Of a DNA stretch of 64,000 nt, positions 43,285 to 45,980 are shown piece by piece. The notes below the pieces were generated by a model. That model had not been told where the DNA came from and ran no database searches. It saw only the letters and a program-made list of their open reading frames with translations. The stretch spans positions 372,001 to 436,000 of the forward strand of contig NZ_CP096884.1 in assembly GCF_023273855.1 (NCBI RefSeq), in the 5' to 3' direction. A program made the translations under genes and the position numbers. Numbering within the stretch: position 1 is the stretch's first letter; every line of letters begins with the position of its first letter. This stretch comes from Seonamhaeicola sp. ML3 (GTDB lineage Bacteria; Bacteroidota; Bacteroidia; Flavobacteriales; Flavobacteriaceae).

Positions 43285-43305
43285 GAACTCAAACAAAACA
43301 CTTGT

Positions 43306-44274
43306 ATGGATCTACATTTACTAATAGACAACTTATCAAACCCGGCGTTATTATTCTTTTTTTTAGGAGTTATAGCAGTGCAGCTTAAAAGTGATTTGAG
43401 CATACCTGAAAACTCTTCAAAATTCATATCATTATACCTTTTGCTAGCCATAGGCTTTAAGGGTGGACAAGAGTTGGCACATAGTGAGTTTAATCTAGAA
43501 ATACTTTGGTCTTTACTTTTTGGAATTTTTTTGGCAGTTGCTGTTCCAGTATATGCGTACTTTATCTTAAGAAGAAAGTTTAATGTTGAGAACGCAGGTG
43601 CTATTGCAGCCTCTTACGGATCAGTTAGTGCTGTAACTTTTGTGACCGCCATTTCTTTTTTGGAATTAGAACAAATTGCATTTAGTGGTCATATGGTGGC
43701 CGTGATGGCTCTTATGGAAGCTCCTTCTATTATGATCGGCCTTCTATTAATCATGCTTTTCAGCGGAGGGAAGAAAAAATCAAACATTCCATTAAAAACA
43801 GTGCTTCAGCATGCGCTTTTTAATGGTAGTGTATTACTCATTCTAGGAAGCTTGGTTATAGGATTTTTGGCAAGCGAAGCTCAGGCTGAAGGAATAAAAC
43901 CTTTTACAACAGACATTTTTAAAGGCTTTTTAGCTGTATTTCTTTTAGATATGGGGATTACCAGTGGTAAAAAGCTAAACGAATTTATTAAGAAGGGTAA
44001 ATTCGCTCTCATTTTTGCAATCATAGTACCTATTGTTAATGGATGTATTGTAGCATTAGTTACTGGATCTTTTGTCACTGGAGTAGGAAACAGACTTTTA
44101 TTTGCAATACTGGCTGCAAGTGCTTCTTATATTGCTGTACCTGCTGCTATGAAAATTGCTGTACCCAAGGCGAGCCCGAGTTTGTATATACCTATGGCTC
44201 TTGCTATAACCTTCCCATTTAATATTACACTTGGTATGCCTTTATACTTATATCTCATTCAGAGTAGCTTTTAA
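43306..44274 (+). CDS. sbtA: SbtA-type sodium-dependent bicarbonate transporter
   Basis: A 322-residue polytopic membrane protein of the DUF897/SbtA family, with about ten helices in an inverted-repeat pattern. Family stretches include LLLAIGFKGGQELAHSEF (the conserved GFKGG), AASYGSVSAVTFVTA, MALMEAPSIMIGLLL, and the mirrored FLLDMGITSGKKLN and ASASYIAVPAAMKIAVPKAS. SbtA imports bicarbonate with sodium in cyanobacteria; the local sodium pump would suit that. It is somewhat shorter than cyanobacterial forms. No SbtB or carbonic anhydrase gene is nearby. Confidence 0.88.
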   Translation: MDLHLLIDNLSNPALLFFFLGVIAVQLKSDLSIPENSSKFISLYLLLAIGFKGGQELAHSEFNLEILWSLLFGIFLAVAVPVYAYFILRRKFNVENAGAIAASYGSVSAVTFVTAISFLELEQIAFSGHMVAVMALMEAPSIMIGLLLIMLFSGGKKKSNIPLKTVLQHALFNGSVLLILGSLVIGFLASEAQAEGIKPFTTDIFKGFLAVFLLDMGITSGKKLNEFIKKGKFALIFAIIVPIVNGCIVALVTGSFVTGVGNRLLFAILAASASYIAVPAAMKIAVPKASPSLYIPMALAITFPFNITLGMPLYLYLIQSSF

Positions 44275-44306
44275 ATAAATTTATCTTCTTTTAAAAGTAA
44301 ATCATT

Positions 44307-44342
44307 AAAAAACCATCTTAAAAAAAATTGCGATGGTTTTTT
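44307..44342 (+). terminator. Intrinsic terminator of sbtA
   Basis: A stem AAAACCATC/GATGGTTTT with a 14-nt A-rich loop followed by TTTTTT, 33 nt after the stop. Confidence 0.75.
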
Positions 44343-44512
44343 ATCTCTAAAAACTAAATGGGTAAAATAAATAAAGCTCTCTAATGTGACCTTACCAATA
44401 TCTATGTGTCATAACTTATGAGAAAAAGAAAATAATTTATATGTTTTTGTAACATAATTTGATTTATGTACGTATAACTACTGAATGCCCTAACATTCAT
44501 AAATTAAATTAC

Positions 44513-44518
44513 AGGAGA
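44513..44518 (+). promoter_or_regulatory. Shine-Dalgarno sequence in front of rpoD
   Basis: AGGAGA sits with its AGGAG core 7 nt before the rpoD ATG (44525). Other start sites in the window that I inspected have no such sequence, and it decides nothing about the start but is unusual for the phylum. Confidence 0.7.
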
Positions 44519-44524
44519 TTTTAG

Positions 44525-45388
44525 ATGAGACAACTTAAAATTACGAAGCAGGTTACTAATAGAGAAACGGCTTCCCTAGACAAGTATTTACAAGAAATTG
44601 GGAAGGTAGATCTTATTACTGCGGATGAAGAAGTGGAGTTAGCACAGCGTATAAAAGCGGGTGACCAAATTGCTCTGGAAAAATTAACAAAGGCTAATTT
44701 ACGTTTCGTAGTATCGGTAGCTAAACAATATCAAAACCAAGGACTTACATTACCGGATCTTATTAACGAAGGAAACCTTGGATTAATTAAAGCTGCACAA
44801 CGTTTTGACGAGACTCGTGGTTTTAAATTTATCTCTTATGCGGTTTGGTGGATACGTCAGTCCATTCTTCAAGCATTAGCTGAACAATCTAGGATTGTAC
44901 GATTACCTCTAAATAAAATTGGTTCGATCAACAAAATCAATAAGACCTTTGCTTTTTTAGAGCAAAGTCATGAACGACCACCAAGTGCCGAGGAAATTGC
45001 TAAAGAGCTAGACATGACAATTAACGACGTAAAAGAATCTATGAAGAATTCTGGTCGTCATGTTAGTATGGATGCGCCCCTTGTTGAAGGTGAAGACTCA
45101 AACTTGTACGATGTTTTAAATAGTGGCGAATCTCCAAATCCTGATAAAGAATTACTACACGAATCTTTAAGAACCGAGATAGAACGTGCACTAGAAACAC
45201 TAACACCTCGAGAAGCTGATGTTATTCGTTTGTACTTTGGTCTAGGAAACCAACACCCTATGACGCTTGAAGAAATTGGAGAAACTTTCGATTTAACAAG
45301 AGAGCGTGTTAGACAAATTAAGGAAAAAGCTATTCGTAGATTAAAACATACGTCTAGAAGCAAAATATTAAAAACTTATTTAGGATAA
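44525..45388 (+). CDS. rpoD: Primary RNA polymerase sigma factor
   Basis: The housekeeping sigma-70 of Bacteroidota, 287 residues, without the long N-terminal region 1.1 of proteobacterial RpoD. Region 2.2 reads [21 protein letters not shown] (a 21-residue stretch, named here by its ends), region 2.4 [19 protein letters not shown], region 3 SIN, and region 4.2 [20 protein letters not shown]. The gene has its own leader and two terminators. Confidence 0.97.
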
Positions 45389-45417
45389 TAATCAAAATAC
45401 TCCTAAATTACCGCAAC

Positions 45418-45446
45418 AACAGTTACACATAACTGTTCGTTTTTTG
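45418..45446 (+). terminator. First terminator of rpoD
   Basis: An 8-bp stem AACAGTTA/TAACTGTT with a 4-nt loop and a six-T run, 29 nt after the stop. Confidence 0.75.
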
Positions 45447-45457
45447 ATTGATGAAAG

Positions 45458-45488
45458 AACCCCCGGCTGATTACCGGGGGTTTATTTT
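45458..45488 (+). terminator. Second terminator of rpoD
   Basis: A 9-bp GC-rich stem AACCCCCGG/CCGGGGGTT with a 7-nt loop and a T-rich end, 12 nt after the first terminator. Confidence 0.85.
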
Positions 45489-45569
45489 TAAATACTAATT
45501 TGTAAGTATTCTTTTAATGTTTATCTGTTTTTTCTTAACTTTAATTCGTTTTAATGAAATACCCCTAAC

Positions 45570-45980
45570 ATGATTAAAACCATTTGTTATTTAAGTGATT
45601 CTATAGCCCACGAATCTATGGAAAAGTTAGAAACACTCTATCTTAAGGCAAGGGCGAATAACAAAAAAAACAACATTACTGGAGTATTAATCTACAACAA
45701 TCTTAATTTCTTACAAGTTCTTGAAGGAGAAGAAGAGGTAGTGAACGCCACGTTTGACAGAATTCGGTTTGACAGAAGACACAGGAATATTTTCGAGGTA
45801 ATTAACACTACCGTAGATGTACGGATTTTCGAAGATTACAATTTTGGCTTTACCATTGTTAATAGTAAATCAGAACTAAAAAATCTTTACGACTACTTAG
45901 AATGGTTAAGAAATGGAGACCACAAACTAGCTAATGATGTCATAAACATGGTTGAAAACTTTATAGACAGGAAGTCCTAG
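45570..45980 (+). CDS. BLUF blue-light photoreceptor protein
   Basis: A 136-residue single-domain BLUF protein. BLUF domains bind FAD and rearrange hydrogen bonds in blue light. The three photochemical residues are present: Y7 (ICYLSDS), N31 (ARANNKKNNITG) and Q49 (FLQVLEG). The C-terminal part after residue 95 is helical and holds no output domain, so the signal must pass by protein-protein contact. It sits between rpoD and rpe. Confidence 0.9.
   Translation: MIKTICYLSDSIAHESMEKLETLYLKARANNKKNNITGVLIYNNLNFLQVLEGEEEVVNATFDRIRFDRRHRNIFEVINTTVDVRIFEDYNFGFTIVNSKSELKNLYDYLEWLRNGDHKLANDVINMVENFIDRKS

Follow-up and report, generated by a model that had tools for sequence, protein, structure and literature searches.

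Does the gene of the primary sigma factor, rpoD, carry a working Shine-Dalgarno (SD) sequence in a bacterium whose family uses almost none, and if so, is its translation tied to the ribosomal protein bS21, as reported for rpsU? The anti-SD sequence of Bacteroidota has been reported as sequestered, and SD control in Flavobacteriales was concluded to be limited to rpsU, in a study that looked for genes of one genome above the strength expected once by chance (PMC9976891, cited here and below from excerpts of the article). A literature search for an SD sequence of rpoD in Bacteroidota, judged mostly on titles and abstract openings, recognised none, and the term rpoD was absent from the main text of PMC9976891, PMC8710568, PMC6847099 and PMC9723704.

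The site before rpoD

The window, i.e. the whole analysed stretch of 64,000 nucleotides, contained an SD-like site directly before rpoD:

44513..44517, + strand: SD-like AGGAG, pairing with CTCCT of the organism's own 16S tail, 7 nt from the start codon
44525..45388, + strand: rpoD, primary sigma factor, 287 aa (open reading frame and Sigma70_r2 match)

Positions 44513-44527 read AGGAGATTTTAGATG, with a spacer of 7 nt (ATTTTAG) between AGGAG and the ATG at 44525. The first-pass annotation had placed AGGAGA 7 nt before the rpoD ATG; this distance holds for AGGAG but not for AGGAGA taken strictly. The open reading frame at 44525-45388 ranked first among the 25 Sigma70_r2 matches in the genome, and a full-length match to the 287-aa RpoD was found in 7/7 genomes of the genus.

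Sixty open reading frames across the window (non-overlapping, ≥100 aa, ATG start) were compared; their starts were set mechanically and some will be wrong. AGGAG was present at −20 to −5 of a single start, that of rpoD, in line with the earlier remark that no other start checked has one. GGAG occurred in the same interval of two starts and AGGA in one. AGGAG was not rare in the window (93 occurrences on both strands, two of them in the arrangement AGGAG-N5-9-ATG), so the single site proves little and the comparison with relatives carries the proof.

Conservation of the site

Within the genus, AGGAG was present in six of seven rpoD leaders, and the seventh had AGGAA. It was found in 37 of 80 related genera (one genome each), at a spacing of 8 nt in 32, 9 nt in three, and 10 and 14 nt in one each, so that the usable distance of 7 nt seen here is near-constant in relatives. 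The 80 genera were drawn from the highest-listed hits of a family search (373/395 genomes matched, at least 194 genera; stretches up to ~20 kb) and hence overstate the family. The wider figure is that of a strict pattern, which misses variants such as AGGGAG: it was present in 90/395 genomes and 59/203 genera and absent in 144/203 genera, as AGGAG was in 43/80. The first-pass annotation had proposed to look for a conserved AGGAG at fixed spacing across Flavobacteriaceae. Such conservation was evident in the genus and in the 37 genera, 32 of them at one spacing, but extended to only the 59 of 203 genera.

Background was low in every control. AGGAG stood before 4/958 neighbouring open reading frames from the same stretches, and since their starts were also mechanical and partly wrong, rpe leaders were added, with 0/63. 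Eight mock windows further upstream gave 0-1/80 each. Per position, G was found in 1-6 of the 80 leaders between −30 and −14; the motif's own three G positions had it in 46, 44 and 40 of 80. Chance was rejected on the counts for neighbouring open reading frames, mock windows, rpe, window starts and the family pattern.

AGGAG with a spacer of 7-8 nt is an ordinary site in bacteria such as Escherichia coli. Here, unlike there, AGGAG hardly ever precedes a start (the 4/958 above), and PMC9976891 describes the anti-SD as sequestered.

Class-wide, 5/17 genomes of this family matched versus 2/379 others. A named set of 80 sequences was also inspected, from which 12 with another N-terminal start were split off (AGGAG in 0/12); AGGAG was present in 8 of the remaining 68, which span other orders and probably include some paralogues. 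The site is thus largely a trait of Flavobacteriaceae, where it is common, though not general, and far above background. The group names Flavobacteriaceae, Flavobacterium, Weeksellaceae and Chryseobacterium were assigned from RpoD identity to named records. As a separate observation, the RpoD-like loci L059, L062-L066, L074 and L080 had the N terminus MRQLKIIKQV and leaders without AGGAG; L063 is a paralogue, since its named genome also contains an ordinary rpoD (L042).

In a tree of 106 rpoD genes the AGGAG label needed 25 changes, fewer than in all 500 shuffles, and at least eight changes were forced by well-supported branches. The label is therefore clustered, and the genera are not independent counts. 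The tree was weak (16/103 inner branches starred) and cannot separate gain from loss. This clustering, together with the patchy distribution over 59/203 genera and the forced changes, would fit a motif that is a chance or ancestral inheritance with no function. The frequency speaks against such a relic, which we consider very improbable: 46% of the 80 genera had AGGAG versus 0.4% of neighbouring open reading frames and none of the 63 rpe leaders, although the end branches for rpoD coding DNA have a median length of 0.37 changes per site. AGGAG has persisted across many Flavobacteriaceae genera whose leaders otherwise diverged.

Predicted pairing with the 16S tail

The 16S 3' tail of this genome reads GGAACACCTCCTTTCT, and a CCUCC core is accordingly present. 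A search for the tail with GGATCACC found none in this genome because the actual tail differs. AGGAG is complementary to the tail; the predicted duplex with the rpoD leader has five pairs and an energy of −7.4 kcal/mol. By duplex energy rpoD tied for first among the 60 window open reading frames, with one that lacks AGGAG. Duplex energies of rpoD ranged from −6.5 to −9.7 kcal/mol across the 37 AGGAG genera, and −9.7 was also the strongest among all 80. A predicted fold speaks against use of the site, as it pairs the final G of AGGAG and the bases behind it with the coding region.

An energy of −5 kcal/mol was reached in 42 of the 80 genera with the canonical tail, and in eight with the changed tail of another family described below. 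Only five of the 43 genera without AGGAG reached it. Sixteen Flavobacterium-like leaders (12 taken by group code, four by record name) behaved differently: 14 were at −5 kcal/mol or lower and only eight had AGGAG, variants being AGGGAG, AAGGAAGGG and AAGGAA. Because the energy outlasts AGGAG, pairing rather than the exact letters seems to be kept in these leaders.

Together, conservation above background (six of seven in the genus, 37/80 genera versus 0/63 rpe leaders), spacing and complementarity led us to favour, with somewhat better than even confidence, AGGAG as a real, selected SD of moderate strength that would aid initiation by ribosomes with a free 16S tail. In this reading, AGGAG would pair with a 30S subunit once the 16S 3' tail has left the pocket of bS21, bS18 and bS6. 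This pairing would position the start codon and lift rpoD initiation above the level given by the leader alone. The contribution would add to ordinary SD-independent initiation rather than provide a switch of the rpsU kind, and its effect is expected to be modest since the site is weak.

Two neighbouring open reading frames (L174 and L185) had SD-like leaders of their own, TTAGGAGAAG and TTAGGAAAGGA. Their N termini resemble what we take to be glutamate 5-kinase, and this gene is possibly another with a conserved weak SD.

Leaders in the family with a changed anti-SD

According to excerpts of PMC8710568 and PMC9976891, the anti-SD of Chryseobacterium and its relatives is UCUCA, a change that their rpsU has followed. 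In the group holding Chryseobacterium-like RpoD, a changed 16S tail was present in 88/148 genomes, and 22/28 rpsU loci had ATGAGAT in their leaders. We compared 49 rpoD leaders of this family; the genera were picked from the 16S tail survey and the rpsU leaders, with the changed tail seen in not every genome. A further 21 of 70 leaders were excluded as Flavobacteriaceae or as genera without a sign of the change.

TGAGA was found in 0/49 of these rpoD leaders and AGGAG in 1/49. Among the 19 leaders outside the largest genus, 13 reached −5 kcal/mol with the changed tail; a mock window over all 49 gave 3/49. The changed tail paired better in 4/15 genera, in one of them trivially (−0.1), and the canonical tail in 11/15. 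The three other genera, which favoured the changed tail clearly or somewhat, had medians of −9.7 vs −8.9, −7.5 vs −3.0 and −7.8 vs −3.0. In the largest genus GAGG stood in 30/30 rpoD leaders, although its own tail gave only −4.3.

Covariation with the changed anti-SD was thus not found for rpoD. This weakens but does not settle the SD reading, as the element may simply have been lost there. Since rpoD does not follow the anti-SD in general, the letters may well have a different role. They might be kept as a site for a protein or a small RNA, or as an mRNA stability element that resembles an SD. The 30/30 leaders with GAGG in a genus whose anti-SD lacks CCUCC agree with such a role, as does the A that commonly follows AGGAG (A at −8, 58/80), though G would pair better.

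As an observation in its own right, the rpsU leaders L307, L310, L313, L314 and L317 had AAATAGAT or AAAGAGATG instead of AAATGAGAT, a hint that this family has additional variants of the anti-SD.

Promoter-like boxes, stems and start context

Three further features were found in the rpoD leader:

44448..44453, + strand: TGTAAC, putative upstream box of a promoter-like pair, kept in 80/80 genera
44471..44476, + strand: CGTATA, putative downstream box, 17 nt after TGTAAC
44482..44499, + strand: small stem-loop TGAATG/CATTCA in a predicted fold, near the probable mRNA 5' end

The TGTAAC/CGTATA pair preceded rpoD in 80/80 genera. With a spacer of 13-20 nt it occurred 80 times in 3,047,444 bases (both strands of the same stretches), always at rpoD. 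Both boxes were present in 66/70 leaders of the second set, and of the 146 leaders with both, 135 had a spacer of 17 nt. The pair does not resemble TAnnTTTG, the box of the main sigma factor; in excerpts of PMC9723704, a box with CGT is attributed to a sigma factor of ECF type. By analogy, this suggests that rpoD is transcribed via another, ECF-type sigma factor. The rpoD mRNA would then start near 44480-44485.

The 81-nt stretch as a whole was no more stable than shuffles (z 0.03). Stems just after the box exceeded shuffles, with z 5.1 in the 80 genera and, for the family with the changed anti-SD, 3.0 in 15 genera (at the best offset out of six in each case, relatedness not corrected), and were made of differing sequences at the same place across genera. 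The idea that a 5' hairpin is the main feature was rejected: with free placement p 0.05 was reached in 10/101 genera. With the 5' arm at a fixed offset, the stem sum at the best such offset was higher than in any of 200 shuffles, relatedness again not being corrected, and the hairpin is therefore treated as a secondary observation. Three Rfam matches within 43300-45600 were all far below gathering scores and none lay over the site, so a known structured RNA was also dismissed.

In the triplet before the start codon (44522-44524 here), T at −3 was present in 78/80 rpoD leaders versus 263/948 neighbouring open reading frames, and A at −2 in 76/80; both were more constant than the SD. In Flavobacterium johnsoniae, A at −3 is a positive determinant (excerpts of PMC6847099). 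An upstream open reading frame ending at the start was considered and rejected: the triplet before ATG was TAA or TAG in 62/80 and TAC in 11/80, and what is conserved is thus not strictly a stop codon.

The kept T at −3 and A at −2, and the stems near the probable 5' end, fit a role of the letters other than pairing with the ribosome. The spacing and complementarity suit an SD, and the Flavobacterium-like leaders change letters while retaining pairing, which argues against it. We regard such a role as rather unlikely.

Comparison with rpsU and possible dependence on bS21

The first-pass annotation had suggested, by analogy with rpsU, that sigma-factor supply is linked to the bS21 level, and had marked the analogy as inference. 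Under this proposal rpoD would be read preferentially by ribosomes lacking bS21. According to excerpts of PMC9976891, such ribosomes favour rpsU, and the SDs on which they act are exceptionally strong, with pairing below −13 kcal/mol as the mark of rpsU. The rpsU leader of this genome has AAAGAGAGGAGGTTAAGAACT before its ATG, with a predicted −17.6 kcal/mol, and 22/28 rpsU leaders of the family were at −17 kcal/mol or lower.

The rpoD site resembles the published extended SD of rpsU (PMC9976891, excerpts) in matching the 16S tail within an SD-avoiding lineage. The distance after AGGAG is also alike, with 7 nt for rpoD here, 8 nt for many rpoD genes and 10 nt for the organism's own rpsU. It differs in strength, as the own rpsU forms 11 bp (one G-U) and rpoD 5 bp. 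It also differs in distribution and covariation: the rpoD site is patchy among genera, and rpsU follows the changed anti-SD whereas rpoD mostly does not.

A link to bS21 draws on the presence of a conserved rpoD SD in a family with extended rpsU SDs, and on some Flavobacterium-like rpoD leaders that reach −9.6. In F. johnsoniae, an AGGAGGU reporter responded to bS21 loss, while an AGGA tuf reporter was virtually unaffected (excerpts of PMC9976891). With its 5 bp and −7.4 kcal/mol the rpoD site falls between these two. The energy here and the range of the 37 genera stay well short of the published rpsU class, which none of the 80 genera reached; the near-inert AGGA reporter and the poor tracking of the changed anti-SD also speak against the link. 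The proposal is hence not supported so far, and we consider it improbable that sigma supply is tied to the bS21 level as at rpsU. Some bS21 dependence of rpoD is possible, and neither strength nor covariation argues for it.

Another known case is the SDs of ribosomal genes such as rpsR in other Bacteroidia orders, with modes of −8 to −12 kcal/mol (PMC9976891, excerpts; the energies come from different programs). They are alike in their moderate strength and in occurring in only part of the lineages. They differ in belonging to ribosomal protein genes, whereas rpoD encodes a sigma factor, and in Flavobacteriales the ribosomal genes other than rpsU lack such SDs, according to the same excerpts.

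More than one match to bS21 was found in 15/31 genomes of the family, often two or three. The bS21 copies starting with MLKIIV lacked an extended SD and most MLIIP copies had one (L353, L355, L356, L359).

Possible implications for translation in Flavobacteriaceae

The moderate SD that we favour bears on the published conclusion of rpsU-only control. A weak site that recurs across genera would fail a single-genome threshold. In terms of strength, this conclusion is therefore not contradicted, though it may be incomplete. The conserved SD on a housekeeping sigma gene is too weak for such a threshold and is clear across genera. The sequence comparisons hint that, in a family nearly without SD use, one more gene may be translated with the help of base pairing to the ribosome.

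A more specific version, which we put forward tentatively and think doubtful, is that rpoD is the second Flavobacteriaceae gene read by free-tail subunits. Its weak, graded SD would raise sigma synthesis under a shortage of bS21 or delayed subunit assembly, and T at −3 would keep ordinary initiation low and thereby give the SD its weight. If rpoD is read by subunits with a free tail, transcription capacity would be coupled to ribosome state. The rpoD site bears on whether weak SDs respond to ribosome composition, and SD use in Flavobacteriales may be wider and graded, extending beyond rpsU.
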